A DNA stretch of 46,051 nt from Candidatus Melainabacteria bacterium (GTDB lineage Bacteria > Cyanobacteriota > Vampirovibrionia > 2-02-FULL-35-15). The notes below the pieces were generated by a model, which did no database searches, was not told where the DNA came from, and saw nothing but the letters and a program-made list of their open reading frames with translations. The DNA is taken from the NCBI GenBank assembly GCA_016201905.1, contig JACQBQ010000058.1:1-46051 (forward strand), in the 5' to 3' direction. A program made the translations under genes and the position numbers. This document shows positions 351-29,828 of the stretch, in pieces (position 1 is the first letter of the stretch; the number at the start of each line of letters is the position of its first letter).

Positions 351-424
351 TATTTCCTAAATCACTTATGTAAGTATTTTACTAATAAAATCTAAATTTC
401 TAAAAAGTCGTAGACAGTCTAGAC

Positions 425-471
425 CAAATTAAGAAAAACTAGGCGGGAAACCTTGTTCACTAGGACTCCAC
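425..471 (+). repeat. Intergenic hairpin repeat, copy A (minimal form)
   Basis: AATTAAGAAAAACTAGGC leads into GGGAAACCTTGT, two loop bases, then ACTAGGACTCC. The arms pair with the same interrupted pattern as the longer copies, but there is no inserted top. The 5' AAGCARC box is not recognisable. It sits in the 351-546 gap before the methyltransferase gene, which otherwise shows only AT-rich DNA. Confidence 0.6.
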
Positions 472-546
472 AGTTAATACAGTTATTAAATCAGCTTATA
501 ACTTAAGTTTTTGTAATTTATTCAAGTGATATTATAAAAGTCAATT

Positions 547-1416: not shown

Positions 1417-1524
1417 TTAAGCAGTCCTCTTATAAAAATCAAGATTTATAAGGTAGGAAACCTTGTCCCCGCTCTGACTCGCATCGAGCGAGGCGAACAC
1501 TTTGTGAGCGGCACTAGGTCTCCA
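1417..1524 (+). repeat. Intergenic hairpin repeat, copy B (extended form)
   Basis: The 5' box TTAAGCAG is followed by CAAGATTTATAAGGTAGG and the stem AACCTTGTCCCCGCTC, which pairs with GAGCGGCACTAGGTC. The top carries two extra hairpins, CTCGC/GCGAG and CAC/GTG, giving a three-way junction. It lies downstream of the methyltransferase gene in the same orientation as the other copies. Confidence 0.75.
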
Positions 1525-1591
1525 AATCATTAAAAAATGTATTATTAATGTATAAATTCATAAGGAAATCCTGACTCTTAACCATTGCTTA

Positions 1592-1631: not shown

Positions 1632-1985
1632 ATGTCGTGGAATATAGAAATGTATGAAACGGAAGGAGGTAGAAAACCTGTAGAAGAATTCTTAATGGCA
1701 TTACCAAAAAATCATGAGACCAAAGCTAACATTTTAATACAAAGATTGTCTCAAGAAGGAAATATGTTTAGGTTTCCATTCACTAAAACTATATCTGGGA
1801 AATTAAAAGAATTAAGGATTCAAGCATCACCAAATATCTACAGAATCTTTTACTTTGCTCATATTGATAAAAAGTTTGTTCTATTACATGGATTTACCAA
1901 GAAGACAGAACAAACACCAAGAAAAGAAATAAGAATTGCTGAAAATAGGATGAGTGAATATATAAGGAGATACAAAAATGGCTAA
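1632..1985 (+). CDS. higB: HigB/RelE-family toxin (Gp49-like)
   Basis: The 117-residue protein has the layout of the Gp49/HigB branch of the RelE superfamily: an N-terminal YETEGGRKPVEEFL segment, a central GKLKELRIQASPNIYRIFY core and FVLLHGFTKKTEQTPRKEI near the C-terminus. These toxins are ribosome-dependent mRNA interferases. Family-typical features visible are the basic KELR and RIFY strands and the HGFTKK strand. The gene precedes its antitoxin and overlaps it by 8 bp, the inverted toxin-first order typical of HigBA. Regulation is probably through the two inverted repeats at 1592-1621. Family assignment is firm; activity is inferred. Confidence 0.85.
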   Translation: MSWNIEMYETEGGRKPVEEFLMALPKNHETKANILIQRLSQEGNMFRFPFTKTISGKLKELRIQASPNIYRIFYFAHIDKKFVLLHGFTKKTEQTPRKEIRIAENRMSEYIRRYKNG

Positions 1986-2295
1986 AAGAAAAAAAACAAA
2001 CTATGAGATATATTTTGAGAAACAAATGAAGGATCCAGAATTTAAGAGATTATATGGAGAAGAAGAAGCTAAGTTCTCTGTTTCTCAAAAGATAAAGCAT
2101 CTTAGAGAAAAACTCGGTATAACTCAACAACATCTAGCTAAGCTTACGCATACTTCACAAGCTGCAATTGCAAGAATAGAAAGTGCAGACTATGAAGGTC
2201 ATTCACTTTCTAAACTCTATGAGATTTCTGAAGCATTAGGTGCAAAATTAGTAATTGATTTTATTCCTATAAAAAATATAAGGAAATCAGCTTGA
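1978..2295 (+). CDS. higA: HigA-like XRE-family antitoxin
   Basis: The 105-residue protein has an XRE-type helix-turn-helix at about residues 38-85 (KIKHLREKLGITQQHLAK, then TSQAAIARIES as recognition helix), followed by a short C-terminal strand ALGAKLVIDFIPI. The Lys-rich N-terminal 35 residues probably wrap the toxin. It overlaps the toxin gene by 8 bp, so the two are translationally coupled. It should neutralise the toxin and repress the operon by binding the paired operators upstream. Repeat copy C begins six bases after its stop. Confidence 0.85.
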   Translation: MAKRKKTNYEIYFEKQMKDPEFKRLYGEEEAKFSVSQKIKHLREKLGITQQHLAKLTHTSQAAIARIESADYEGHSLSKLYEISEALGAKLVIDFIPIKNIRKSA

Positions 2296-2300
2296 TTTTC

Positions 2301-2370
2301 AAGTAACCTTCAAATCCAGGTTAAGGTTTATAAGGTGGGAAACCTTGAATCGAATGTAAGTCCAGATTTT
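2301..2370 (+). repeat. Intergenic hairpin repeat, copy C (3' arm decayed)
   Basis: It starts with AAGTAACCTT, which pairs perfectly (AACCTT/AAGGTT) with the following GGTTAAGGTTTATAAGG, then GGGAAACCTTG. The 3' arm is degenerate (GTAAGTCCAGATTTT). The distance from the 5' box to GGGAAACC matches the other copies (36-38 bases). It directly follows the antitoxin gene. Confidence 0.6.
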
Positions 2371-2473
2371 GTACCATCTTGGATAAGTTTAAATGGTTTA
2401 GCCAGTTCTACAAAGAGTTTGCGGTCTTTTAAATAAAAGTGGGAAACTCATTAATCAGAAAGGATACTAAGAT

Positions 2474-3610
2474 TTAACTTAATTCTTTAATTAATGATTT
2501 GAGATCAATGAATTGTACTTTTAGGTTTCCAAATTTCCTGGATAAGTTCATATCAATATCACTTGCTACCAAGTAATTATCTCCACTTGGATACTGCCTT
2601 CTAAAAGCTTCTAATCCTGAAGGATTAAAGTGATCGCTTCTCCATTTACATTCAATAGCAATTGGCTCTTTCCCTCTCTTCTTTAAGATGAAGTCTACCT
2701 CATGTCCTCTCTTATCTCTCCAATAATTTATTTGTTTTGTTTGCAAATTTGCTTGGATCTCATTTAAAACAAAATGCTCCCAAAGGTAACCCAAATCTTC
2801 ATTTCGAAGTTTTTCCCAGCCTTTGTAATAGCATATAAATCCAGTATCAAAAGCATAGACCTTTGGTGCAGAAACTATTTCAGTTGGTTTGTAGGTGCTG
2901 AAAGGCTTAATTATATGAAATACAAAAGTTGATTCTAAAATTCTTAAATAATTATTTATTGTTTGCCTACTAACCTCACAAGGTTTTGCAAATTTAGACG
3001 CTTCAAATATTCCACTACTTTGATTAAGTACAAGATCAAAAAACTTTTGAAATGAATCTTTTCTTTCTAATCTAAAAAGTTCTTGAATATCTTTAGCCCA
3101 GTAATCATCCATCCACTCCTGGAAATACCTTTCAGGAATTTTCTCTGACATAAAAAACGGTGGTAAACCGCCCATAAAAAGGCGATGTTCCAGATCTTTG
3201 TTTCTAAAATCCAATAGGTCATTAGTGATCATCGGTGTTAACCATAACTGTATTTTTCTTCCTGTCAAAGTATCTTTAAATTTCTTTGAAGCAGTAATCG
3301 TTGATGATCCGGTTGCAATTATTTTTATACTGCCAAAATGATCAGTTGCAATTTTTAACAGTTCTGATGGATTGTCAAGTCTATGAACTTCATCTAAAAT
3401 AATTCTTTTACCTTTCAATTTTTCTAAGAATTCTTCTGGCTCACTCATTAGTTTTCGTGTTTTAGGTAATTCACAATCAAAGTATTCCACTTTTTCTAAA
3501 GATTGACAAAGATATGTTTTTCCTACTCTTCTAACGCCAGTTAACCAAATCAAAGTTCTTTCTTTCCACAAGTCATTTATTTGGTTTATCCAGAAATTCC
3601 TTTTAGCCAT
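2474..3610 (-). CDS. AAA_14 ATPase with DUF4143-like C-terminal domain
   Basis: The 378-residue protein has a Walker A GVRRVGKT (residues 25-32), Walker B RIILDEVHRL with D73/E74, and a sensor-like ATGSS, followed by a winged-helix-like segment and a C-terminal region with EVDFILKKRGKEPIAIECKW (about 304-325). The D...ExK arrangement in that segment is reminiscent of a PD-(D/E)XK nuclease fold. This AAA_14 plus DUF4143 architecture is common in bacteria and archaea, often next to mobile DNA, and its substrate is unknown. ATG 3610 (MAKRNFW) is preferred; an upstream ATG at 3628 adds MLLSLH. No good Shine-Dalgarno site precedes either. The gene is alone between repeat copies C and D, opposite to the repeats. 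Confidence 0.85.
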   Translation of the reverse strand: MAKRNFWINQINDLWKERTLIWLTGVRRVGKTYLCQSLEKVEYFDCELPKTRKLMSEPEEFLEKLKGKRIILDEVHRLDNPSELLKIATDHFGSIKIIATGSSTITASKKFKDTLTGRKIQLWLTPMITNDLLDFRNKDLEHRLFMGGLPPFFMSEKIPERYFQEWMDDYWAKDIQELFRLERKDSFQKFFDLVLNQSSGIFEASKFAKPCEVSRQTINNYLRILESTFVFHIIKPFSTYKPTEIVSAPKVYAFDTGFICYYKGWEKLRNEDLGYLWEHFVLNEIQANLQTKQINYWRDKRGHEVDFILKKRGKEPIAIECKWRSDHFNPSGLEAFRRQYPSGDNYLVASDIDMNLSRKFGNLKVQFIDLKSLIKELS

Positions 3611-3676
3611 ATGTAATGATAATAGCATATAGTGCTACTAAACGCAACTATAGTATCAATTGGTACGTTATATCTT

Positions 3677-3798
3677 AAGCTGCTTTCAGTGGTATATTAA
3701 GGTTCACAAGATGGGAAACCTTGCCCCCGCCCCTTTTTGGGGCAAGGCTTGCCTCACTCACAAAGTGAGTGGGCGGCACGAGGCCTCCAGATTCTTTT
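3677..3798 (+). repeat. Intergenic hairpin repeat, copy D (extended form)
   Basis: AAGCTGCTTT opens the copy; TTAAGGTTCACAAGATG leads to GGGAAACCTTGCCCCCGCCC, which pairs imperfectly with GGGCGGCACGAGGCCTCC. Inserted hairpins include CCCC/GGGG and CACTCAC/GTGAGTG. The gap 3629-4032 otherwise contains only AT-rich DNA and a -10-like TATAAT at about 4013 ahead of the hydrolase gene. Confidence 0.75.
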
Positions 3799-4032: not shown

Positions 4033-5334
4033 ATGACAGTAAAAATTAGCAACAATCCTTTTTTGCCAATAGGAGTACCCTATGTTACTCAGGCAGGCCT
4101 CTTTGCTGGTAGAAGTACTATTAAACATATTACAAGATTCCTGGGAGAGCACAGTTCGGTCACGCCTGTAGTAAATCCAATGATATTATTTGCCAGGAAT
4201 ATGCTAGCAGCTAAAGATTGGTTTTCAAGAAAAATTGATTCTGTTAGAAGAGGAATAGCAAAATCTAGGCTCAGAGTTGTTGCAAAAGAACTTGAATCAA
4301 AGAAAGAAATTAGTGATAAAAGAGCTTGGGTTAAAGGATTTTGTTCTTTGAAAGATTCTTCTGATTTATCTTTGTTTGTTGAAAGATATATTTTAAATCT
4401 TCTGGATAAAAAAGTGTCCGGATTTTCCCCACGGGTATTTGGAACTACCTTAAATGATAGATTGTCAGACATTGTTACTGAATACCAAGAAAATTTATTA
4501 GATGAACTTGGTAGTACAGGATTAACTTCTGGTCATATACAAAGAGGAAAAATTGCTAATAGGGTTTTTGATTTGCTTACGCCAAGAGTTGCTGTTCTTG
4601 GAGGTCACAGTCAGGGAGGATTAACAGCTTTACAGTCTTTGCAGGAAAAAAATAATGATATTTCAATTGTTCTTGGCTGGGGCATGCCAACAAATGGGGT
4701 AAATCCAGAAAGAATTCCTGCACCGTGGCTACTTAAAAGAGTATCTCCAATGGTGGGTGAATTAACAGCTGGAAGTTCTGAACTTATAAAAGCCAAAACA
4801 ACACCTTGTCCTATTGATACGACTATAATTGCTATAGACTCAAAGGACAGAAAAGATGATGTAATTCTTCCTAATAGTCTCTCCTCCGATATATCAAACG
4901 CTCATCATGTAGAGGTAGGTCCGAAAAAGGCTAAAGCTACAAATGTTTTAGGTGGCCTGCAGACTCCCATAGGATATCTATTGGATCATCCACCATGGTT
5001 CCTTAGGACAAGAGCAGAAAGAAATTTGTATCATTTTTCATATCTGGATGAAAGGCATGTCCCGTACTTCTTCTCAGAGGAAAAAGGCAGTTTAGTTTTT
5101 GAGTTTGGTATAGGGCAGAACGCAGTGGAAAATACCCGACAGCTTTTACACCCCTCTAATAATGGACTTTTACAGTCAAATTATTTGCAATGGCTCTTAG
5201 AAAAAATTAAATCCAAAGAACTTAATTTTGATCTTTCTGATATAAAGTCAGAACTGGAAGAACTACAGAAATTATCCATGCCATTTCGGGGTAGTGAATA
5301 TGAACTTGCTCAAGAAGTGTCTAATTTAATATGA
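4033..5334 (+). CDS. Alpha/beta-hydrolase, lipase-like protein
   Basis: The 433-residue protein has a nucleophile elbow LGGHSQGGLTAL with the candidate nucleophile S193, preceded by the hydrophobic strand PRVAVLGG, as in lipases and other alpha/beta hydrolases. The catalytic Asp and His cannot be fixed; the later IIAIDSKDRKDD and DERHVPYF segments hold candidates. The first 160 residues are basic and helical without recognised motifs. No clear signal peptide is seen. ATG 4033 lies a few bases after TATAT/TATAAC boxes, so the mRNA may be short-leadered. The gene stands alone between repeat copies D and E. The fold is likely; the substrate is unknown. Confidence 0.65.
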   Translation: MTVKISNNPFLPIGVPYVTQAGLFAGRSTIKHITRFLGEHSSVTPVVNPMILFARNMLAAKDWFSRKIDSVRRGIAKSRLRVVAKELESKKEISDKRAWVKGFCSLKDSSDLSLFVERYILNLLDKKVSGFSPRVFGTTLNDRLSDIVTEYQENLLDELGSTGLTSGHIQRGKIANRVFDLLTPRVAVLGGHSQGGLTALQSLQEKNNDISIVLGWGMPTNGVNPERIPAPWLLKRVSPMVGELTAGSSELIKAKTTPCPIDTTIIAIDSKDRKDDVILPNSLSSDISNAHHVEVGPKKAKATNVLGGLQTPIGYLLDHPPWFLRTRAERNLYHFSYLDERHVPYFFSEEKGSLVFEFGIGQNAVENTRQLLHPSNNGLLQSNYLQWLLEKIKSKELNFDLSDIKSELEELQKLSMPFRGSEYELAQEVSNLI

Positions 5335-5347
5335 TTATTTAAGTATT

Positions 5348-5400
5348 AAGCAGCCTGTGAACCTAGATTAAGATTTACAAAGTGGAAACCAGGCCTCCAC
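5348..5400 (+). repeat. Intergenic hairpin repeat, copy E (minimal form)
   Basis: AAGCAGCCTG is followed by GATTAAGATTTACAAA and the hairpin GTGGAAACC-A-GGCCTCCAC at 5382-5400. The arms pair, with A·C mismatches at the same place as in longer copies. No extra hairpin is inserted. It lies between the ends of the hydrolase gene and the convergent toxin gene. Confidence 0.7.
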
Positions 5401-5419
5401 CAAGTTTAATAAGTTCGCA

Positions 5420-5707
5420 TTATTTATAAACACTCTTACTACCAGAATGTCTACCAATATCTAAAAGTAAAATTACTAACTTATTTTCAATTTGCATCCA
5501 AATAATTCTTATATCACCAGTCACAAATGAGCTATAAATCTCTCCATATTGAGATAAGAAAACTTTATGAGTTTTCAAGGACTTATATTTAGGATTTGAT
5601 CTTAATAGTTCAAGCGTTTTTTCAACTGCACTCTGTAATTTCTTATTTTTTCCGGTGAGTTTCTTATACTTCTTTCTAAAGTTACTTGTAGTCTGTAATT
5701 CATACAT
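5420..5707 (-). CDS. RelE/YafQ-family mRNA interferase toxin
   Basis: The 95-residue protein matches the compact RelE/YafQ/ParE toxin fold: FRKKYKKLTGKNKKLQ helix, SNPKYKSLKTHKV loop, GEIYSSFVTGDIRIIW central strands and a C-terminal LLLDIGRHSGSK strand with His, close to the YafQ catalytic region (DIGTHSDLF-like). YafQ toxins cut mRNA on the ribosome. The gene follows its antitoxin with a 4-bp gap, in the usual antitoxin-first order. It would be regulated by the antitoxin at the operator at 6010-6037. Assignment to the superfamily is strong; the exact subfamily is an inference. Confidence 0.8.
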   Translation of the reverse strand: MYELQTTSNFRKKYKKLTGKNKKLQSAVEKTLELLRSNPKYKSLKTHKVFLSQYGEIYSSFVTGDIRIIWMQIENKLVILLLDIGRHSGSKSVYK

Positions 5708-5711
5708 AATA

Positions 5712-6005
5712 TTAGTCTTCTATTAACTGATTATGTAAGGATTTAGAAAAATTAAGCTTTCTGGTTTTTCCTTCTTTGTATTCTACAAGTCCTTCAGCAA
5801 TTATTTGTTTTAAGTTATCAACATTAGAATTTTCAAAACCCAATTTACTTACAAAGGATATAACCAAATTATTGTTTACAAAATTAGTTAGTAAAAGTCT
5901 CACTATCTCATTAACTGAGCTAAACCCGACTTCTTTAGCCTTTTTCTTAAGTTTATTATTTAGCTCTTCAGAAATAGGGACCTGTAATTTTAATTGATAA
6001 GTCAT
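5712..6005 (-). CDS. RelB/DinJ-like ribbon-helix-helix antitoxin
   Basis: The 97-residue protein opens with a short strand and helices (LKLQVPISEELNNKLKKKA, then GFSSVNEIVRLLLTNFV), the pattern of ribbon-helix-helix DNA-binding antitoxins. The remaining charged tail (EGLVEYKEGKTRKLNF) probably covers the toxin. AGAGAGG lies nine bases before the ATG. The promoter region carries three direct repeats spaced 11 bp, which suits cooperative binding by ribbon-helix-helix dimers. It is the first gene of the operon with the RelE/YafQ-like toxin. Confidence 0.75.
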   Translation of the reverse strand: MTYQLKLQVPISEELNNKLKKKAKEVGFSSVNEIVRLLLTNFVNNNLVISFVSKLGFENSNVDNLKQIIAEGLVEYKEGKTRKLNFSKSLHNQLIED

Positions 6006-6009
6006 AAAC

Positions 6010-6037
6010 TATACCTCTCTTATACCATGATTATACC
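6010..6037 (-). promoter_or_regulatory. Three 11-bp-spaced direct repeats upstream of the antitoxin operon
   Basis: TATACC occurs at 6010, 6021 and 6032 on the + strand (GGTATA on the coding strand), exactly one DNA turn apart. The array includes -10-like TATAAT/TATAAG sequences on the - strand and sits just before the Shine-Dalgarno site of the antitoxin. It is a good candidate operator for autoregulation by the ribbon-helix-helix protein. Confidence 0.55.
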
Positions 6038-6078
6038 TTAATAGGAGTATATCTAATCAAGGTACAATTAGAATAATT

Positions 6079-6155
6079 AAGCAACTTTTAATAAAGGGTT
6101 AAGATTCACTAGGTGAGAAACCTTGTCCCCGCGCTGAAAGGGCACTAGGTCTCCA
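6079..6155 (+). repeat. Intergenic hairpin repeat, copy F (near consensus)
   Basis: The box AAGCAACTTTTAA pairs with the later TTAAGATT to form hairpin 1. Hairpin 2 is GAGAAACCTTGTCCCC with GGGCACTAGGTCTCC over a short loop. The copy lies upstream of the RelE/DinJ-like operon and just after the end of the HEAT-like gene. Confidence 0.75.
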
Positions 6156-6167
6156 ATAGGTTTAAGA

Positions 6168-7058
6168 CTACACTTGTAAGTCTTTTAAAGCGTAAGCTCC
6201 TTGTTGTTTACATAGATTATAGCTCTGAGTATCCTGTGAATAAAGTATTAGTTCTCCTGAAGCTATGTTAGACAATAAATTTCTTATTAACTTAGTTCCA
6301 TACTTTTTAATGTAATAAGTTACAACGGTCTTTGCTTCTGCTTTTTGTATTAAATCGCTCTCAAGATCAGATTGAATCCCCATGTGGATAAATTCAATGG
6401 CTTCTTTTATCATTTGATCGATTGTGATACTGAAGGGTATTGTATCTAATTTGCTTTCTAATGCATGCAGTATTGTAGAATCTTTATGATGATACTGTAG
6501 TGCACTAATAACAAATTTTTGAACTCCCTCGCTCTCATCATTTAAGCATTTTATTAGAGCAGGATTTACAGGACCATCAAGTGTCCTCATGACTAATGTA
6601 TAAAAAGCAGCTGCCCTAATTTGAGGATTATTGTTATTAAGTAAGTTTAGTAATTTTGTTGTAAGTTTGGATTCATAAGATTTATCTATTTCATTTTGAT
6701 GAAATACAATCTTGCTTGTTAATTGCATATCCATAAAGTAAGTCAGGCAACAAATTGCTTGGGATCTAAGTTCTGCATCAAATTCAGATTCATCAAATGC
6801 AATCTTATTTAACACTTCAAATAGTTCATTTTCTTTATTAGCTTTTTTATATTTGTCCACAAGTTCGCATCTTAGCTCGTATTGCTTTAATTTGTCATCT
6901 AATGGAGATTTCTCATTGCTACTTTTAGATTTAATAACTTCTCTTAATTGGTTAATTACTTGATCTTTTGCAGATGCATGATAATTTTCATCTGATGCCC
7001 TTACAGGTGTACCAAATAAACCAACTATTTTTTTAAATCCACTTATTATAATTGACAT
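6168..7058 (-). CDS. HEAT-like repeat protein of unknown function
   Basis: The 296-residue protein is helical and contains HEAT/armadillo-like pairs, clearest around residues 140-200 (NPQIRAAAFYTLVMRT, then SEGVQKFVISALQYHH). HEAT repeats form protein-binding solenoids, and the partner is unknown. There is no signal peptide or catalytic motif. A strong AGAAGGAGATT Shine-Dalgarno site precedes ATG 7058. It lies alone between repeat copies F and G. The HEAT call is by pattern only. Confidence 0.55.
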   Translation of the reverse strand: MSIIISGFKKIVGLFGTPVRASDENYHASAKDQVINQLREVIKSKSSNEKSPLDDKLKQYELRCELVDKYKKANKENELFEVLNKIAFDESEFDAELRSQAICCLTYFMDMQLTSKIVFHQNEIDKSYESKLTTKLLNLLNNNNPQIRAAAFYTLVMRTLDGPVNPALIKCLNDESEGVQKFVISALQYHHKDSTILHALESKLDTIPFSITIDQMIKEAIEFIHMGIQSDLESDLIQKAEAKTVVTYYIKKYGTKLIRNLLSNIASGELILYSQDTQSYNLCKQQGAYALKDLQV

Positions 7059-7176: not shown

Positions 7177-7270
7177 AAGCAGCTTTTGCTAGAAAATTTG
7201 GATTTACTAGGTGAGAAATATTATTCCTGCCTTGGCAGGTCCGCCTCGGCAGAAACCAGGTCTCCAGATT
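7177..7270 (+). repeat. Intergenic hairpin repeat, copy G (diverged)
   Basis: AAGCAGCTTTTGC is followed by GGATTTACTAGGTGAGAAA, an inserted hairpin CCTGCC-TT-GGCAGG, and the 3' arm ACCAGGTCTCCAGATTTTT. The 5' arm has changed (AAATATTATT instead of AAACCTTGTC), so hairpin 2 is weaker. It separates the HEAT-like gene from the peptidase operon. Confidence 0.65.
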
Positions 7271-7371
7271 TTTATATAGCACAAAACAAATTTATGCTTC
7301 ACTCGGTCAATCACTTTTATAAAAATTGAATTTGCTGTACAAGCTGTAAATTATTACAAACTAGAACTCGA

Positions 7372-9063
7372 TTAAATCTGAAACTTATTATCCTTTATTA
7401 AAACTTTTCTATCAGAACCGTTTACCTTTTCAGCAAATACCATTACATTTGGTCCACCAATCATAAAGTCAATGTGTACAGGAGAATTGTTGCAACTTAG
7501 ATTTCTCATATATATTTCTCTCTCATCATGATTAGCTATATCGTTTGTACCCTCAATACAATCAGAGTAAGAGTTTCCAAGAGCAAAATGACATGTGGCA
7601 TTTTCATCTAGCAATATACTATTAAATATCTTGCCCAAATCAAATATTGGAGAACCTGCTACCACAGCAATTTCTCCTAACTTATCTGCATTTTCATTTT
7701 TTTCTAACCACTCCAGGAGGACATCTGGATTTTTTGTAGCATTTGCTTTTATAAGCTTACCTTCATTAAATTCCATTTGAATACCATCAACAATAGAACC
7801 ATTTAAACTAACGGGTCTTGTCATGCTTACTGTGCCTTTAGTCTTTGTCCAATCTGGAGTTGTAAAACATTCTTCAGTTGGTATATTTGGAATATAAACT
7901 TGTCCACTGGGTGTTATTGCAGTTCCTGAAATAAAAATAGATTTTGGTGTCAAACCAACTCTTAAATCAGTTTTCCCATCTGGAGTCTCTGTATTTGGTC
8001 TAACACTTAAGAAGTGCAAAATATTGTAACCCTGTTTTACTACAGCATTAAGTTTCTCCTCTGTTTTTTTTAGATTTGCAATATGTTCAGTTAACTTACC
8101 TACGCGAGTTATTTTTCTTGCTTCAATAGCAGCATCTTTTAAACTAGCGTAACCTGCAGCACCTGCTGAAGCTGTAGTTGGTAAATAATAAATGCACCAA
8201 GGATTTTCTATTGTAAGGCGATCCTCATAGGGTTTAGTTTTTTTAAGTATACCTGTCTGTGCAAGTTGAATCTTTGCAGGATCAATATTTTCATATTTAC
8301 TTGGGTCTGTGCCCTCTAAATATAAACTGGCTGTGCCCTTTTCAAGAAACTCTTTAGATCGTGCTACCACAGATTCTGGCACCTCACTTAAAATGGACTT
8401 GCTTGCATATTTGTAAAATGGAATAGCTAAATCAAACTCTTTTTTTTCATTAATACTAATATCAATTAATTTAGTACCATTTTGATAAGCCCATTCTGCT
8501 AATTGAAGCATTTGTGGCAAGTGCTCTCTTGAACCTAAAATTGCTAGAGGCTGTCCCCTTCTTAAATTTAAACAACCACTTAGAATTTCTTCTGGATTAA
8601 TTGCAAGTTCTTTTTGCACATCATCAGGAATAAAGTCAGATATACTTTTGATTAGATCTTTTTCGTCTTGTGCAGAAAGACCTGCTTCACTATACAGAGA
8701 TGTGGTTTTATCAAAAGTAATAAAAGCTGCCCCTTGTTGTTTAAGTTCTAACTCTTTTTGTTCTTTATAGTCAAAATCTTCTCTAATACCATACCTTGCT
8801 TTTAAATCTTCTAATGCTTGCTCTTTTAAGCTAACCGAAACTAGTCCAGCGTTAAAATCCCTGTATGCTATCTCAACTGTCTTATAAACAAATGGAAGAT
8901 GATCACTGTAAGCTGTGATTTTTAGTTTTTGGTTAGGTCTTAATGCTTGTCCGCTATTAACTTGAGAAAGAAGGTTTGCAATGTAAACATTAAGATCTTT
9001 TTGTTGTTCTAGGAATAACATTCCCGGATTCAGGTTTGATGCAATAAGGGGTTTAACTTGCAT
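7372..9063 (-). CDS. M29-family metallo-aminopeptidase
   Basis: The 563-residue protein contains the metal-site motifs of M29 aminopeptidases (AmpS/aminopeptidase T): NIPTEECFTTP (E397/E398), LGEIAVV (Glu near 464), ENATCHFALGNSY (H492 and the following Tyr), and VHIDFMIGG (H530, D532). All expected ligands are present, so a di-metal peptidase trimming N-terminal residues of cytosolic peptides is likely. The N-terminal 270 residues are longer than usual and only loosely match the family; bacterial M29 enzymes are typically 370-410 residues. An AAAGGA lies seven bases before the ATG. The gene is the last of a three-gene set with GH130 and a second M29 paralogue. Confidence 0.8.
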   Translation of the reverse strand: MQVKPLIASNLNPGMLFLEQQKDLNVYIANLLSQVNSGQALRPNQKLKITAYSDHLPFVYKTVEIAYRDFNAGLVSVSLKEQALEDLKARYGIREDFDYKEQKELELKQQGAAFITFDKTTSLYSEAGLSAQDEKDLIKSISDFIPDDVQKELAINPEEILSGCLNLRRGQPLAILGSREHLPQMLQLAEWAYQNGTKLIDISINEKKEFDLAIPFYKYASKSILSEVPESVVARSKEFLEKGTASLYLEGTDPSKYENIDPAKIQLAQTGILKKTKPYEDRLTIENPWCIYYLPTTASAGAAGYASLKDAAIEARKITRVGKLTEHIANLKKTEEKLNAVVKQGYNILHFLSVRPNTETPDGKTDLRVGLTPKSIFISGTAITPSGQVYIPNIPTEECFTTPDWTKTKGTVSMTRPVSLNGSIVDGIQMEFNEGKLIKANATKNPDVLLEWLEKNENADKLGEIAVVAGSPIFDLGKIFNSILLDENATCHFALGNSYSDCIEGTNDIANHDEREIYMRNLSCNNSPVHIDFMIGGPNVMVFAEKVNGSDRKVLIKDNKFQI

Positions 9064-9223
9064 ATAGTCCTTTAATTAATTAAGGTTTTAATTGGATTAT
9101 TCAAAATTGTAAGTTATAAAGTAACACTTGTCAAATTAAAAACAGGTTATTAAACAGGGGCATTGTGATTCAAGCCCGAAACATAAATAGATACTTTATA
9201 ATTCTTAACTTTAGTTCTAACAC

Positions 9224-10342
9224 TTATTCTTGTTTTGTAGTCTCAGTCTCTATAAAATTACCATCTTTGTCAAATTGACTAAGATAATTTAAAGCATCGT
9301 TCAATCTAAATTTTGCAACACCAACATATTTATCAGCTGCTCCATAATATACATAAACTATTGGATTAGCAGGCTCTGTGTAATCTTGCTTTAAAACCAC
9401 GCCTTGTGGAAATACTACATTTTCAACCAGTCCTGCAACTTCAAACTCTAGTGTTGGTTCTAAAATAGGAAATGGTGAACGGGAAATAACTTTCCATGGT
9501 TCATGTGCATCAAGGAGAGCCATACCACCTCTATAAATTCCAAGATCGTCAACTGCATGGTAAATAAATAATCCTCCCTTAGGAGTTTTAATAGGTGGGG
9601 CACCACCACCAAGTTTTCCACCTTCCCATGTTTTTGGTATTGTTCTAAGAATTGTTTTACTGTCTAGATTTGTTGTTGAAGTTATTTTGCCCTTTGCATC
9701 AACTGGAATTTCTTGTTTCCAAAATGCTTCTCCAGCGTTACCTAGCAGCTCTTCAATACTATCAACTAGCACATATTGAATATTTCCTGTTTCACTTGCC
9801 CTATGATAAAGCATAAGTTTTGGCTTTTCATTGATATAGATTGGCTCCGGGTGGAAGAAGGCATCTTTATCATCGAAATCTCTTGGACCGATTATTCCTT
9901 TATAGTCAAACTCTTCAAAGTTCTTTGTAAGCGTTAAAGTAATTTGAGGTGTTTTACCATCATAAGCAGTTGCAACAAGGTAATTCAACCTTCCGATTAG
10001 AGTAACCCTTGCATCTTCGTAGCCATATGTAAAACGATCATTGGGAGATAAAGCATCGATTGTTCTTAAGTCTTTAATAAAAAGTCCATCTTTAACTTCA
10101 GCGAGGCAAACATAAGAAACAAATTTGCTATCTGGATATTTCTCGCCAAAAGTAATCCGAGGGAAGAGAAGAAATCTATTATTTCTATGGATTGTTGCCC
10201 CAGGATTGTAAGCTCCGTCTGGGTTTATTCCAATATTATTAGGCCTTAAAAGTGGAGCTATTTGCTTGTGGATTTTAAATCTATTTATTCTTGCATCAGC
10301 AAAATTAGTTATTTTACTTGATATTAAGTTACTTATTCCCAC
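9224..10342 (-). CDS. GH130 glycoside phosphorylase (mannoside phosphorylase-like)
   Basis: The 372-residue protein has GH130 features: GYEDARVT (residues 107-114, with the conserved ED), FHPEPIYIN, GGGAPPIKTPKGGLFIYHAV, VVFPQGVV and a final YYGAADKYVGVA. GH130 enzymes reversibly phosphorolyse beta-mannosides (4-O-beta-mannosyl-glucose, mannooligosaccharides, or mannosyl-N-acetylglucosamine); the exact substrate cannot be read. The start is GTG 10342, overlapping the end of the upstream peptidase gene by 10 bp, with GGAG at 10350-10353 seven bases upstream. This indicates translational coupling. It has no signal peptide and is presumably cytosolic. Confidence 0.85.
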   Translation of the reverse strand: MGISNLISSKITNFADARINRFKIHKQIAPLLRPNNIGINPDGAYNPGATIHRNNRFLLFPRITFGEKYPDSKFVSYVCLAEVKDGLFIKDLRTIDALSPNDRFTYGYEDARVTLIGRLNYLVATAYDGKTPQITLTLTKNFEEFDYKGIIGPRDFDDKDAFFHPEPIYINEKPKLMLYHRASETGNIQYVLVDSIEELLGNAGEAFWKQEIPVDAKGKITSTTNLDSKTILRTIPKTWEGGKLGGGAPPIKTPKGGLFIYHAVDDLGIYRGGMALLDAHEPWKVISRSPFPILEPTLEFEVAGLVENVVFPQGVVLKQDYTEPANPIVYVYYGAADKYVGVAKFRLNDALNYLSQFDKDGNFIETETTKQE

Positions 10343-12027
10343 TTAATATCTCCATATTTCTTCCAGTTAAATGTACTATCTAAATTTAGAAAATCTTCAG
10401 TAAACTCTCCTTCTCTACGAATTATTACTGGCTCTTTAGAATTATCTTGTAAACCAGAAATTGTAACTCCTGCGCCAGGACCAGATTTAAGCGACATATC
10501 AACATGAAGATCACATTTATTTTTTCCACCTGTTACTGTGTATCCATCTCCACAAGCAAAGTGTACATCCTGCTTTTCTGCAATTAATGTGTTGTGAACG
10601 ATTCTTCCATTCAAAAGTTCTGTAATCATTCTATTAAATCCAATTGCAAATTCACCAAGGCGATCAAAGTTTTCAATTTTTAAGCCTGACTTTGGACCTC
10701 TTCCTAAAATACGACCTTCAAGGTGTTCTTTATCCCCAGATTCAAGATCTAAATCAATTATTTGTCCACCTTTAAAGACTAAAGTTAGTCCATTGAATTC
10801 TTTATTATCAAGAACAAATGGCAAATCAAAATAAATCTTACCTTCAACACTATCTTCGACTGGTGATGTAAATATTTCAGCAGGAAGAGCATTTCCCGTA
10901 ATTGTTGAAGGACATACATAACGACTTTCTTTAGCTCCAGGCTCTCTTATTGAAAGGGTTACATTGGTTTTCCCATCTTCTCTTTCTACTTTTATTGTAT
11001 GAAATTTCCGTAATTGTTTTGCATAGTGATCAACAAGTAACATCATCTCTCGGTAAAAGTTGATTGGATCTGTTTCATCAAGATGTGTAATTTTCTTATA
11101 AAACTCACCAAAATCATCTAATCCTTTTTCATCAGAAGTGAATCCCATCTCAGAAGCAAGATCAAAAGAAGGAGAAAGCCCAAGGGTTCTAAAAAACTTT
11201 CCAGGTGGCAGTGCTCCCCATTCAACACGTGACATTCTTTCCATATAAGGACTGGAAGATTTTGAAGCAGCTTTTATAAAGAGTGTTTTTCTTCTTTCGT
11301 ATTCAGCATCACTAATATTAGATGGAGATATCTCAATCCTTGCGTAAGTATCCTTAGAAGTATTATAAATATCAAAGAATTTTTGCATTGTTTGAAATAA
11401 CATCAGTGTGTCTGGCTTTACAAAACTCAGTTGCTCATCACTGGCTGCATTAACACAAGTGTGGTGTTTTCCTTGAGCATTTGAGCCCATTACATAGGGA
11501 ATGCCTTGATTTTCAACTATACGTTTTACTATTTCTTCTACAAGTCTATCTGAGTCAGAAGTAACAACATAAAGCTGGACACTTTCATTAGCTTTTGCAT
11601 TACGTCCAAGCAAGCTGTTAAGTTTCTTATCATCTTCTGCAAAATCAAACCACTTGTTTAGGCTTGCAGATTTTGAAACACTACTATCTCGCATCCAGAC
11701 TATATGTTTGTATTCTTTTCCCAGCCAGCCATTTAATGCTTTATAGTCTCTTTTAAGTTTTCTTGTTTTATTTGTCTGAATAATTTTTTCTACTTCTTCT
11801 GGTCTTACGACAAGATTTACTTTGTAACCTCTCTTTAGTAAGGTGTCAAAAACATCAAGTGCATTTTGAGAAACATTGAGGTTAGAAACCCGTACAGGAC
11901 ATAACTCACCAGGATTAATCCCACCGACTGAAACTCGTGTCATCAACTCAGCACAAGACTCATACGGAAAGGTTTTTGCTGCTTGATTCCAAGCTATAAT
12001 GCTATTCGTTGTACTGCCAATTTTCAT
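10333..12027 (-). CDS. Second M29-like aminopeptidase paralogue
   Basis: The protein is about 564 residues from ATG 12027 (MKIGSTTNS). A TTG at 12096 would add 23 hydrophobic/basic residues but has less support. The C-terminal half has the M29 ligand pattern: PAEIFTSP (Glu near 384), LGEFAIG, QDVHFACGDGY (His near 488) and DLHVDMSL (His/Asp near 510). As in the peptidase at 7372-9063, the N-terminal 250 residues are extended. The two proteins look like paralogues of the same long subtype. The gene overlaps the GH130 gene by 10 bp. Peptidase family is well supported; specificity is unknown. Confidence 0.75.
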   Translation of the reverse strand: MKIGSTTNSIIAWNQAAKTFPYESCAELMTRVSVGGINPGELCPVRVSNLNVSQNALDVFDTLLKRGYKVNLVVRPEEVEKIIQTNKTRKLKRDYKALNGWLGKEYKHIVWMRDSSVSKSASLNKWFDFAEDDKKLNSLLGRNAKANESVQLYVVTSDSDRLVEEIVKRIVENQGIPYVMGSNAQGKHHTCVNAASDEQLSFVKPDTLMLFQTMQKFFDIYNTSKDTYARIEISPSNISDAEYERRKTLFIKAASKSSSPYMERMSRVEWGALPPGKFFRTLGLSPSFDLASEMGFTSDEKGLDDFGEFYKKITHLDETDPINFYREMMLLVDHYAKQLRKFHTIKVEREDGKTNVTLSIREPGAKESRYVCPSTITGNALPAEIFTSPVEDSVEGKIYFDLPFVLDNKEFNGLTLVFKGGQIIDLDLESGDKEHLEGRILGRGPKSGLKIENFDRLGEFAIGFNRMITELLNGRIVHNTLIAEKQDVHFACGDGYTVTGGKNKCDLHVDMSLKSGPGAGVTISGLQDNSKEPVIIRREGEFTEDFLNLDSTFNWKKYGDIKWE

Positions 12028-12230
12028 TGTTATATTCTTTATTATTTCAGAAAAACTAAGTCTTATTAATTTAACTTTAAATTGAGTAGATGTCAATTAA
12101 ATTTCAAATGTTACTGCCTAGGTTTTAACTAAAAAATGATAAAAGTATGCTTTTTAGAAAAGATTAAAAATATTTTAACTTCAGGGGTTAGAAAATTCTT
12201 GTTTGTACTCTTTGTCCTACCTGTTTTGTC

Positions 12231-12329
12231 AAACAACTTTCAAGTCTAGGTTAAGATTTACAAGATGGAAAGCATAGTTTCCGCTTGGGATTAGCCAGCT
12301 TTGGTGGGGAACTAGTCCTCCAGGTTTTT
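12231..12329 (+). repeat. Intergenic hairpin repeat, copy H (covarying stem)
   Basis: AAACAACTTTC, then AGGTTAAGATTTACAAGATG, then stem arm GGAAAGCATAGTTTCC pairing with GGGGAACTAGTCCTCC through a bulged A. Compared with the consensus (CCTTGTCCCC/GGCACTAGG), both arms changed together, which supports a conserved stem. It fills most of the 12097-12394 gap; the rest shows only AT-rich DNA. Confidence 0.7.
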
Positions 12330-12394
12330 ATAACACTAGCATGCTTTACAAAAAGTGTAAAAATGTGCCTGGGTTTGCAAAGATAAATTAGATT

Positions 12395-13057
12395 TTATTC
12401 TTTATCCGGATCCTTACAATGAATGGTTTCTACTACATATGATACGTCATGAGATAGATCTTCTACTGTAAACCTTGCTTGATTAAATTTTTCTGCAAGC
12501 AAATATACTTTTTCAACCTGTGATAAATCACCTGTTATAACGACAGCAGGTTCAGTGTATTTGCCTGCTGGGCGAACAGCGCAAATCTCTGCTTGTGTTA
12601 AATCAAAGCTATTGCCAAGCTCAGTACGTACTTCTTCTATAGTATGTAATTTATTTGAGGTTTCATATAATTCTCTAAGTCCAAGCACAATTCTAAACTT
12701 AGATGAATCTGAATAATCTTCTATATCTGGATCTCCATTAGTTTCTCTAGCTAATCTTTCAAGCACCTTGTCATGTTCTATTAGTTCAGCTAAAGGTCCA
12801 TATTTTTTTCTTGGATAACGGGTAAAAAAATAATCAAATGAACCATCTTGCTTATCAACAATCCATCCTGAAAAATTAAAGTTTAATTCTTTTGCAAGAG
12901 CTTCTAACTTTTTTATAAAATCTTCTTTGTTTGAATCTTTTACTGATACAAACCCTGACCACCATGCTTCAGGTTTAAGTTCTCGAAATAGAGATTTTCC
13001 CCCACTGTTTTTATAGGGGACATCTTTTGGAAGAATGAGATTAACTTTTATAGCCAT
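12395..13057 (-). CDS. Hypothetical protein, 220 residues
   Basis: This is a soluble, charged protein beginning MAIKVNLILPKD with no signal peptide, membrane segment or known catalytic motif. It shows mixed alpha/beta character, with conserved-looking aromatic patches (EAWWSGFVSV, GSFDYFFTRYP). Start ATG 13057 has no clear Shine-Dalgarno site. It is divergent from the orphan gene at 13246, with about 190 bp of AT-rich DNA between. No family is recognised. A real gene is likely from its length and its position between repeat copies. Confidence 0.55.
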   Translation of the reverse strand: MAIKVNLILPKDVPYKNSGGKSLFRELKPEAWWSGFVSVKDSNKEDFIKKLEALAKELNFNFSGWIVDKQDGSFDYFFTRYPRKKYGPLAELIEHDKVLERLARETNGDPDIEDYSDSSKFRIVLGLRELYETSNKLHTIEEVRTELGNSFDLTQAEICAVRPAGKYTEPAVVITGDLSQVEKVYLLAEKFNQARFTVEDLSHDVSYVVETIHCKDPDKE

Positions 13058-13200
13058 GGTTACTAATTCTTTGTTAGATAAATATCTTATATTAAGTTAT
13101 TAGTTTATGAGTTAAGGTTAATCGATTTATTTTAAGTTAGTTTTGTATAGTAGAAATTAGTTTTAGGTGGTTTGAGCCTGGTTTAATTTGTACTTCAATG

Positions 13201-13237
13201 TATAATATAAAAACTAATAAAAATATCTTATAAGGAG
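13201..13237 (+). promoter_or_regulatory. -10 box and Shine-Dalgarno site of the 13246 gene
   Basis: TATAAT at 13201-13206 is followed 25 bases later by AAGGAG at 13232-13237, nine bases before ATG 13246. No clear -35 is visible at 16-18 bp. The Shine-Dalgarno match fixes the start of the orphan gene. Confidence 0.5.
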
Positions 13238-13245
13238 AATTTAAA

Positions 13246-13797
13246 ATGACAACAATACCTAGTGGACCAAGTACTAACAAGCCAGCTATAAGACCTGTTC
13301 CTTGTGAGCAATTACCAGCATATTCTAGGAATTCAGATATTAAATATACTTTAAAAATGCCAGGACTAGATATTGCGTTTCTTCTTGAACCATATAATGG
13401 AGGCTACTATAGTTCTACAGAACTAAAAGAATTTACACTAAATTATGCTCCTTCTAGGTTTTGGACTGGATCACTTATTAGACGAGCACTTGGTACACAA
13501 GGGCTTAGTTATACTTCAGAAGATATTAGATCTTTTTCTAGTAGCTATCTGCTTGGTGTTGACAGTATGTTTGAGGTTTATCTACGACACCCAAAAGATA
13601 CTGATAGGACATTAGATGACGGTCCACTTATGATGATCAATAGAGATAATGGAAGCGTTTGTTTTTATCCCTCTGGGTATAATGTAGATTCATTAGCTAT
13701 AAGAACCATTGCAAAAAATATTTTGACAGATATTCAACAATCCGTAGGTAAGAAGTTTAATGGTAAATGGGAGAAGGTTTGTAACTCAAGCTCTTAA
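13246..13797 (+). CDS. Hypothetical protein, 183 residues
   Basis: The protein starts with a Pro/Ser/Thr/Asn-rich, probably disordered stretch of about 25 residues (TTIPSGPSTNKPAIRPVP), followed by a globular alpha/beta region rich in Tyr and Phe (NGGYYSSTELKEF, SFSSSYLLGVDSMFEVYL). There is no signal peptide or recognised motif. A strong AAGGAG supports ATG 13246. Similar hydrophilic N-termini occur on orphans at 15487, 31484 and 38122. Function is unknown. Confidence 0.6.
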   Translation: MTTIPSGPSTNKPAIRPVPCEQLPAYSRNSDIKYTLKMPGLDIAFLLEPYNGGYYSSTELKEFTLNYAPSRFWTGSLIRRALGTQGLSYTSEDIRSFSSSYLLGVDSMFEVYLRHPKDTDRTLDDGPLMMINRDNGSVCFYPSGYNVDSLAIRTIAKNILTDIQQSVGKKFNGKWEKVCNSSS

Positions 13798-13812: not shown

Positions 13813-13943
13813 AAGCCACCTTTCTAAAAATATAAGGTTTCTTATTGCAGGTACAAGTTCCCGCTCAGCCCTTGAAAAGAGCTGAGCGGGGCTCGCTCAA
13901 GCCTTGCTTGAGCGGCGAACTTCCAACCCTACAGGGAGTTTTT
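13813..13943 (+). repeat. Intergenic hairpin repeat, copy I (I/J subtype)
   Basis: The copy has AAGCCACCTTTCTAAAAATA, then a stem ACAAGTTCCCGCTC paired with GAGCGGCGAACTT, and two inner hairpins, GCTCAGC/GCTGAGC and GCTCAAG/CTTGAGC. Its core 13852-13930 differs from copy J (14688-14766) at one position in 79. With J it flanks the nucleotidyltransferase pair as direct repeats. Confidence 0.8.
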
Positions 13944-14122
13944 CAAAATCCTTCTTCTCTTAGTTTTTGTGCGATTTTCTTATTTTCAGGCGGCATTGCT
14001 GCGTTGAGGAATTGATTCATCTCGTTCAGATATTCTAATTTTTTTTCTGGCGACAAATCAATGTAACGTTTTAGGTCTTCATCATTTATATATTCGTCTT
14101 TAATTTTATTTTTATCTTTCAT
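13943..14122 (-). CDS. Small 59-residue partner of the nucleotidyltransferase
   Basis: The reading frame ATG 14122 to TGA 13943-13945 encodes a charged helical protein (MKDKNKIKDEYINDEDLKRY, then LSPEKKLEYLNEMNQF and NKKIAQKLREEGF). It overlaps the end of the nucleotidyltransferase gene by 11 bp in another frame (GATGAAAGATAA), so translation is coupled. Small acidic/basic proteins of this look, with an S/PPEEKL.WL.E.N.F core ending in KKI..KLR, are often found next to stand-alone nucleotidyltransferase genes (from memory, not searched). The pair may work together, possibly as a toxin-antitoxin-like unit; this is inference. Confidence 0.7.
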   Translation of the reverse strand: MKDKNKIKDEYINDEDLKRYIDLSPEKKLEYLNEMNQFLNAAMPPENKKIAQKLREEGF

Positions 14123-14609
14123 CTTTGAGCTCCATTATTCTAGTCAAAACATTTATATCTAACTCATCAATTTTTCTTCCAGCTTCCTTCTTTAATTTTA
14201 TAAGATCTGATATGGAAATGGTTGGTATTTCTACTTCCTGAACTCTATATACCACTTTTCTTTTATAAATCTCACTGAAATTTAAACTATACACAAGCAA
14301 TACATCTATATGTTCAAGTTCATTCTTAGGGTTATACACAGAAAATACTTTCATATTCTTTTCTTCTATCCATTTTTTTCTATTCTCTTTACTAATAAAA
14401 TCTTCTAATTCAACTGGCACTTTTGGTTTATAATTTAAAGACTTAATTACTTTTACAAATCTTGCAATGTTTTCTTCACTAAGTAGAATCACTATGTCTA
14501 GATCATTAGTTATTCTGGAGTACCCATGTAAATTAACTGCTAGCCCACCAACTACTAAATATTCAAAATGTTCATCTTGAAGTTTTTTTAAAATTTCTTT
14601 GTAAAGCAT
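14112..14609 (-). CDS. Stand-alone nucleotidyltransferase (DNA polymerase beta superfamily)
   Basis: The 165-residue protein has the minimal nucleotidyltransferase signature VVGGLAVNLHGYSRITNDLDIVI: GG at 21-22, then D36 and D38 as metal-binding residues, and a third acidic residue probably in EHIDVLL. The C-terminus ends in GRKIDELDINVL, typical of this DUF6036/AbiEii-like group. Members may act as antitoxin- or toxin-like nucleotidyltransferases or tRNA/protein-modifying enzymes; the target is unknown. No Shine-Dalgarno site precedes ATG 14609, but a TATACC lies a few bases upstream, so it may be leaderless. It forms a coupled pair with the 59-residue gene and is flanked by near-identical repeats I and J. 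Confidence 0.8.
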   Translation of the reverse strand: MLYKEILKKLQDEHFEYLVVGGLAVNLHGYSRITNDLDIVILLSEENIARFVKVIKSLNYKPKVPVELEDFISKENRKKWIEEKNMKVFSVYNPKNELEHIDVLLVYSLNFSEIYKRKVVYRVQEVEIPTISISDLIKLKKEAGRKIDELDINVLTRIMELKDER

Positions 14610-14648
14610 AGTGGTATATCTTTTATTATTCTATCTAACATTCTAACT

Positions 14649-14780
14649 AAGCAACTTTCCTAAAAATAGGAGGTTTCTCATTGCAGATACAAGTTCCCGC
14701 TCAGCCCTTGAAAAGAGCTGAGCGAGGCTCGCTCAAGCCTTGCTTGAGCGGCGAACTTCCAACCCTAGGAGGAGTTTTTA
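14649..14780 (+). repeat. Intergenic hairpin repeat, copy J (I/J subtype)
   Basis: AAGCAACTTTCCT pairs with AGGAGGTTT over AAAAAT to form hairpin 1. Hairpin 2 is AAGTTCCCGCTC with GAGCGGCGAACTT and carries the same two inner hairpins as copy I. It ends in CCTAGGAGGAGTTTTT. A 66-residue frame running through it is a shadow. Confidence 0.8.
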
Positions 14781-14910
14781 TTTCTCAAAAGCCCATTGCA
14801 ATTAGTTCTAGGCTTTTACACAACTCATACACTTGTTACACCCTTACTAAGGAAGCATTTTGTGTGCTATATAGTATATGAGTTGAAGACCTAGGATAAG
14901 GAGAGTACAA

Positions 14911-15267: not shown

Positions 15268-15277
15268 AAAAAAATTA

Positions 15278-15310
15278 AGCAGCTAATTCTAACTCAGGAA
15301 TAGAATTTTA
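15278..15310 (+). terminator. Weak stem-loop after the 14911 gene, with repeat-like 5' box
   Basis: AAGCAGC at 15278, matching the 5' box of the intergenic repeats, is followed by ATTCTA (15286-15291) and TAGAAT (15301-15306) and then TTTTATC. The stem is only 6 bp and AT-rich, so it is a weak terminator at best. The GGGAAACC hairpin of the repeat is absent, so this may be a repeat remnant. Confidence 0.35.
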
Positions 15311-15339
15311 TCTTATACCATATTACTTGGGTTCTGACA

Positions 15340-15456
15340 TTGTCAATTGTCCTATGGGGAGCCTGTCTTAGCGAAAATGAAGACTCTGATCGATTAATAA
15401 GATCTGACGCTGTAAATAAACATATCGAGGAAGAAGTTATTTGTGTTGCAGACTGA
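15340..15456 (+). pseudogene. Possible remnant of a small lipoprotein-like frame
   Basis: From TTG 15340 the frame reads MSIVLWGACLSENEDSDRL, then IRSDAVNKHIEEEVICVAD and TGA. The start resembles a short hydrophobic stretch with a lipobox-like WGAC followed by an acidic tail. There is no ATG and no Shine-Dalgarno site, and the frame is closed at 15301. It may be a decayed gene end or chance. Confidence 0.2.
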
Positions 15457-29515: not shown

Positions 29516-29684
29516 AAGTTGTCCTTTAAGATTAGTTCTTAATTATTTTTTACCTCTTCCCAAGAATTCATAACTAGACTATTTGTACTAGATTATAAAT
29601 ATGAGTTAGATTTGCTTTTTTGTCTCAAAACTCTGTTTAAGGAACAGCCACTATTTTTCTGGCAAAATGGGCTTACATAAAAGC

Positions 29685-29747
29685 GGGAATCCGGAATAAT
29701 TGTCGCAAGCGTAACTATGCTGGATTCCAGGTCAAGCCTGGAATGAC
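29685..29747 (+). repeat. Dispersed palindromic repeat, copy 1
   Basis: GGGAATCCGG is followed about 27 bases later by GGATTCC and the perfect 8-bp palindrome ATTCCAGG-TCAAG-CCTGGAAT, then GAC. It belongs to the widespread bacterial class of GGATTCC...TCAAG...GGAATGAC palindromes. Confidence 0.65.
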
Positions 29748-29828
29748 AATAGGCAAAAGATATTCTACCTACTTTTGCTAGAAAAACATCAGTTTCTTTT
29801 GTAAGACTTTTGAGATGAGTTCTTGCGA

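Follow-up and report, generated by a model that had tools for sequence, protein, structure and literature searches.

The first 15.4 kb of the window (the whole stretch of 46,051 nt analyzed here) are likely to be part of a family-specific, integron-like array of cassettes that entered by site-specific insertion where ssrA, the gene for tmRNA, has its 3' end. Integrons are the textbook bacterial platform for the collection of single genes. The present array consists of perfectly co-oriented elements that are specific to one family, and its cassettes are shared between genomes with breaks inside the elements. The junctions between the tmRNA gene and a cassette match array-internal junctions from CTCCA onward.

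Organization of the array in the window

The window is contig C7 of a 2.28-Mb genome assembled in 59 contigs (G000, hereafter the own genome). About 11 co-oriented junction elements were found between positions 412 and 15365, separating one- or two-gene units, many of which are toxin-antitoxin-like. Reading of the intergenic regions by eye revealed the plan AAGCAGCYTT, about 20 nt, AAGATTYAYAAGGTGGGAAAC, a centre and ACTAGGTCTCCA. The element is an imperfect palindrome with the core GTGGGAAAC-7 nt-ACTAGGTCTCCA, and a GC hairpin is often placed in the 7-nt centre. The centre of hairpin-less elements is usually 7 nt long (ATCGTTA, CTTGTTC, TTTGTCC and others), and hairpin-bearing elements have a GC-rich palindrome of 20-50 nt between the sixth and seventh base of the centre. 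Because short elements were misplaced when full-length copies were aligned with MAFFT, the variable hairpin was trimmed before the covariance model, R1, was built, using own-genome copies only.

All elements in the window lie on the plus strand. Element A (412..479; type I, no hairpin, spacer CTTGTTC; R1 54 bits) is followed by element B (1419..1533; type I with a GC hairpin; 63 bits). A plus-strand cassette with a Gp49/HigB-like toxin and an HTH antitoxin (1632..2295; Pfam PF05973, PF01381) has counterparts at other positions in two relatives, with 87% nucleotide identity in G003 and 92% in G007 (blastn). It lies between B and element C (2301..2373; 39 bits), the left half of which is clear and the right half degenerate. 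A minus-strand gene for an AAA_14/DUF4143 ATPase (2474..3628; Pfam) separates C from element D (3677..3798; type I with hairpins; 61 bits), and a plus-strand ORF for a 433-aa protein (4033..5334) with no family match in Pfam or NCBIfam separates D from the short element E (5348..5408; 39 bits). Two minus-strand cassettes follow, a YafQ-type toxin with a 97-aa partner (5420..6005; PF15738) between E and element F (6079..6164; 65 bits), and a HEAT-repeat protein (6168..7058; Pfam) between F and element G (7177..7275; 63 bits). Next is a single large minus-strand unit (7372..12096; Pfam), in which a GH130 phosphorylase gene lies between two M29 peptidase genes, bounded by element H (12231..12331; 63 bits). 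Elements A to H, and a degenerate one near 15277, are the copies besides I and J that a preliminary description of this DNA had mentioned.

The unit between H and I (12395..13797) contains ORFs of 220 aa (minus strand) and 183 aa (plus strand); the 220-aa protein has a homologue inside the G003 array (41% amino acid identity, tblastn). Elements I (13813..13943; type II, two GC hairpins) and J (14649..14779; type II) enclose a nucleotidyltransferase gene and a small partner gene, and a probable degenerate element K (15277..15365) was recognized by eye against types II and III and is unscored by the model. An Rfam scan of the window gave no match. Recognized array contents comprise HigBA, YafQ, AAA_14/DUF4143, lectin- or secretion-like proteins and the nucleotidyltransferase pair; BrnT/A-like pairs and several putative Fic-like proteins, named from a reading of their sequences, may also belong to them.

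Elements in other genomes of the family

R1 matched all 11 family genomes; of 20 genomes from elsewhere in the class it matched one, weakly. The matches outside the own genome are independent, because the model was trained on own-genome copies only. The core pattern with up to three mismatches was present in 9/11 family genomes versus 1/371 in the remainder of the class, and no element core was found in viral contigs. The 58 elements on 14 contigs had the same orientation within every contig, an agreement with a chance probability of about 6e-14 (44 independent comparisons), and the genes between them run in both directions. R1 matches were clustered at 338-368 kb of G003 contig C18 and at 103-127 kb of G009 contig C7, with additional shorter runs elsewhere; in G003 and G009, across 20-25 kb, each unit of one or two genes came with a single element. 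Co-oriented sites that separate small cassettes are a property of integrons and of CALINs (cassette arrays without an integrase). The 9-pair element stem was paired in 79% of cells versus 19-45% for slid versions, and its covariation was no better than that of shuffles.

We also considered dispersed intergenic repeats of MITE or REP type inserted between genes, with I and J as two recent insertions. The hairpins are indeed palindromic and GC-rich, one occurs outside the array (contig C2, position 17227 of the own genome), and many intergenic regions hold repeats. Against this, co-orientation is perfect, the elements cluster on a few contigs with one per gene unit, the homology of units stops at the element, and the tmRNA junctions lack an element. 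We regard this explanation of the elements as very improbable; the hairpin alone may be a MITE/REP-like repeat.

Exchange of cassettes between genera

blastn comparisons between arrays showed that different genera share units (80-94% nucleotide identity), in changed order. Window positions 5388-6121, which cover the YafQ-type cassette, match a unit at another array position in G009 (92.8%), and positions 1513-2293 match G003 (87%). On other contigs of the own genome, C11 1371-2576 matches G009 (94%) and C30 1756-3083 matches G007 (92.9%). At base level, the homology of a unit starts at ACTAGG/CTCCA of one element and stops at GGGAAAC(ATCGTT) of the next. These limits fall inside the elements, indicating that the elements are the breakpoints; cassettes common to several genomes with breaks at the site are likewise known from integrons and CALINs.

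The tmRNA 3' end as entry point

A tmRNA gene heads the arrays of G003 and of the own genome (Rfam RF00023, E 1e-24 to 1e-26); diverged tmRNAs were missed by ARAGORN and detected by Rfam. The tmRNA end, GGACAGGRGGGGCAGNTCCTCCTCGCCTCCA, is conserved in eight family genomes, and the sequence that follows it varies. In at least five of these eight, the tmRNA gene is followed by an array unit of another genome, with homology that starts at the last tmRNA bases (GCCTCCA/CTCCA). The G005 tmRNA flank matches an array-internal unit of G007 from CTCCA (476 nt, 94.7%), the flanks of G006 and G002 match units of G009, and that of G003 a unit of own-genome contig C30, from exactly CTCCA, and the own tmRNA flank matches a G007 unit from GCCTCCA (1337 nt, 92.9%). 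Thus, one and the same unit adjoins the tmRNA gene in one genome and an element in another. Such units, inserted at the ssrA 3' end and restoring it, are also a feature of the ssrA islands of Dehalococcoides. Elements downstream of the tmRNA gene are oriented like it in G000, G001, G002, G003 and G007. Other data speak against this entry point: the array of G007 starts about 5 kb beyond the tmRNA gene, a stretch of 20 kb around that of G006 gave no element, and past GCCTCCA the resemblance between the element consensus and the tmRNA end was not significant (P 0.06). A distal flank in common with relatives was looked for; the regions examined around the tmRNA gene had no YchF gene.

Cassettes that begin with GGTCTCCA inside arrays begin with GCCTCCA at the tmRNA gene (G003, G006), which would place the crossover within CTCCA. 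With the crossover there, the hairpin element would be the attC-like 3' end of the preceding cassette, as judged from a few junctions. A cassette would then consist of one or two genes and one junction element at its tmRNA-distal end. For insertion, the CTCCA that ends an element would recombine site-specifically with the one that closes the tmRNA gene on its 3' side; the tmRNA gene would then stand in for the attI site of integrons and have its end restored at each insertion. Older cassettes would be displaced outward from the tmRNA gene, and cassettes would be shuffled and exchanged across genera. We infer circular intermediates, the sequence in which cassettes entered, the type of recombinase and activity at present.

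In the draft assembly, the window contig and the tmRNA contig (C30) are not physically joined; we infer that they belong to one array. The plus-strand flank of J at 14778..14817 resembles the terminator-like 3' flank of tmRNA genes (33/40 positions in G007, 28/34 in the own tmRNA); against the tmRNA terminator it scored 28/37, and the next best place in the window 23/37. This match suggests that the right side of J formerly adjoined a tmRNA gene, and the outer end of the array is therefore probably at J or close to it. The anchor of the type II elements I and J was not found. The small array contigs C11, C30 and C51 suggest that the array itself fragmented the assembly.

A second co-oriented array was observed on contig C28 of the own genome (23.5-32.6 kb, L126), with a related third subtype, GCACAAGTTC - hairpin - GAATCTGTCCAGGATGGGGTATTTTT. 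Its T-loop-like core suggests a tRNA gene as the possible anchor; the anchor itself escaped detection, as the contig stops at this point. On contig C30 (8775-13453, L042), three secreted proteins have long serine-rich SSSSSG runs; cysteine-rich domains are repeated in one of them, and one has an intein/Hint-like end.

Recombinases and comparison with known systems

No integron integrase (TIGR02249) was above the cut-off in the own genome or in 146 genomes of the class, although these metagenome-assembled genomes (MAGs) may have gaps; the best own-genome match had 64.7 bits against a cut-off of 265, and none in the family reached E 1e-20. The attC boxes RYYYAAC...GTTRRRY were present in 0/58 elements (shuffled mean 0.3). 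A true but diverged integron that has lost its integrase (CALIN), with the elements as attC sites folded as single strands and IntI acting in trans or formerly present, would account for the cassette sizes, the single site at each cassette's 3' end, co-orientation, toxin-antitoxin content, the variable central hairpin, shuffling and the single entry point. CALINs are common (PMC9024848; PMC9668308). The missing IntI and attC boxes and the lack of covariation in the stem make this origin improbable; the conserved one-sided arm is a further difference from integron arrays. We also know of no integron that inserts at the tmRNA end. As the defining features of integrons were searched for and not found, the array was not classed as one.

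The arrays examined neither contain nor adjoin a tyrosine or serine recombinase gene. For the G003 array, the closest tyrosine recombinase was 240 kb away, and there was none on the G009 array contig; serine recombinases (PF00239) occurred in 7/11 family genomes, none of them within or next to these arrays. The lack of a recombinase gene at the arrays speaks against the proposed insertion system. An XerC-like tyrosine recombinase of 311 aa is universal, but not located near the arrays. A 279-aa XerD-like protein, encoded beside a PriA-like gene on contig C23 of the own genome (about 66.2-67.1 kb, L040), is conserved in the family; it appears to lack the catalytic C-terminus, and only the 311-aa XerC-like protein looks active. 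In the sister family f2 (e.g., L095-L111), tyrosine recombinases of 350-525 aa scored 140-173 bits with the integron-integrase model (cut-off 265) and are possibly diverged IntI relatives.

The arrays could also have grown by accretion of cis-mobilizable islands at ssrA, through an ordinary phage or island integrase acting in trans, giving a tandem series in which each unit has a copy of the ssrA end on either side. In Dehalococcoides, ssrA-specific islands have been described in tandem, with 20-bp repeats of the ssrA 3' end between them; some have no integrase (PMC3146451). Like these islands and CIMEs (cis-mobilizable elements), the present units begin with the tmRNA end, form strings co-oriented with ssrA downstream of it, lack an integrase and vary in content between strains, and 370-390-aa integrases and 490-600-aa serine recombinases are variably present in the family genomes. 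In contrast to the islands, the units are gene-sized (mostly 0.6-3 kb, one or two genes), an integration module, of the CcrB-like serine recombinase type or otherwise, is missing from all units of the arrays examined, the tmRNA repeat is just 5-7 nt instead of 20, and every junction has an additional conserved arm of about 50 nt, often with a hairpin. Accretion is, in our view, somewhat unlikely; it differs from the insertion of cassettes at the ssrA 3' end proposed above mainly in the source of the recombinase. Because the 20-bp repeat and the integration module are lacking, the arrays were not classed as an ssrA island series of the Dehalococcoides type.

The system works as a cross of integron and ssrA islands, with gene-sized cassettes, hairpin-bearing sites and entry at the ssrA 3' end. 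It is possible, and we propose it tentatively, that it is distinct from integrons as a class of gene-capture platform, with tmRNA 3'-end entry, a non-IntI recombinase, hairpin sites of an origin independent of attC and, for another array in the same genome, a second site type related to the first. If so, cassette collecting evolved more than once, and the origin of integrons from Xer- or tRNA-targeting recombination becomes testable by comparison. Co-oriented hairpin sites 3' of ssrA and tRNA genes provide a handle for finding such arrays elsewhere. No report of tmRNA-anchored cassette arrays was found in open-access papers, the part of the literature that was covered.

Repeats I and J and the gene pair between them

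The preliminary description had drawn attention to direct repeats I and J, and we confirmed them as gapless, co-oriented copies 836 nt apart, identical at 120/131 positions. The differences are at positions 5, 8, 11, 21, 22, 31, 39, 77 and 120-122 of the alignment, with 1 mismatch in the 79-nt core (13852-13930 and 14688-14766) versus 10 in the 52 outer nucleotides (Fisher P = 4e-4). Beyond the 131 nt, the flanks are unrelated and nothing aligns. BLASTN of I against the own genome gave J as the sole full match, followed by partial matches of 38 and 28 nt. Both have the type II structure, ACAAGTTC - two hairpins - GAACTTCCA, and, as a point against the proposed entry site, carry CTTCCA instead of CTCCA.

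As had been reported, I and J flank a gene pair on the minus strand, consisting of a pol-beta-type nucleotidyltransferase gene (165 aa, 14112..14609) that overlaps a 59-aa gene (13943..14122); the two-gene module is conserved in seven relatives, where the small gene also adjoins the nucleotidyltransferase gene. The nucleotidyltransferase has the invariant GG, DxD and D residues, and DUF6036/DUF2204 matched just under the cut-offs. Its structural model (pLDDT 92) was nearest to MenT1 of MenAT1 in Foldseek (PDB 8an5, E 5.5e-7, TM 0.67-0.69). The pair resembles MenA/MenT and AbiEi/AbiEii in the nucleotidyltransferase fold with its catalytic GG...DxD...D residues and in the two-gene operon with a small partner. 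It differs from MenAT1 in that the nucleotidyltransferase, of 165 aa, is 18% identical and the partner has just 59 aa and belongs to no known family; the partner matched no known cognate antitoxin, with no Pfam, PADLOC or supported NCBIfam match. By this analogy, the pair is likely toxin-antitoxin-like. A contig search with the nucleotidyltransferase yielded distant homologues only, in Nitrospirae and Saganbacteria MAGs.

A second pair on contig C28 of the own genome (49% amino acid identity) also lies between two related elements, and in the seven relatives no such elements stand beside the pair. Thus, the pair seems to be a mobile module acquired in cassette form. The preliminary description had suggested a recent duplication or capture event, with both repeats in all relatives as the finding that would speak for an old arrangement; the relatives have the pair without the repeats. 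Capture is borne out insofar as the array consists of interchangeable, site-bounded cassettes and the pair forms one of them, with I and J as adjacent elements of one subtype. The data do not support that the pair was duplicated recently, since the near-identity is limited to the hairpin core and like cores flank unrelated genes elsewhere: on G003 contig C18, the hairpin cores of the element pairs 346403/347133 and 338985/343758 are 97% identical each. Such recurrence in other neighboring elements makes a recent duplication unnecessary and fits a captured cassette.

An 836-nt I-J unit produced by a purely local tandem duplication or gene conversion would agree with the single mismatch in the core, but the outer arms differ at 10/52 positions, similar hairpin pairs occur elsewhere, and the pair and its flanks have no second copy at the locus, which makes such an origin quite improbable; gene conversion restricted to the core may have occurred. 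The likeness of I and J would instead be explained by hairpins common to the sites of one genome, through recent spread or conversion. Deletion of the pair by recombination between I and J, as previously suggested, is plausible.

Other observations

On contig C2 of the own genome (17227-17264, L001), an I/J-like GC hairpin lies outside the recognized arrays, within a TAGTT...CTAACA palindrome; the GC hairpin may be a small mobile palindrome in its own right. Elsewhere in the window, a 1310-aa protein joins MFS transporter, spermine-synthase and TPR domains (17325-21257), and a REP-like palindrome (GCGGGAATCC...GGATTCCAG...CTGGAATGACA) is present at 29516-29814. At the contig end (45788-45963), a 51-nt tandem repeat encodes an acidic stretch of the EEDPEEPPEEEEDEE type.
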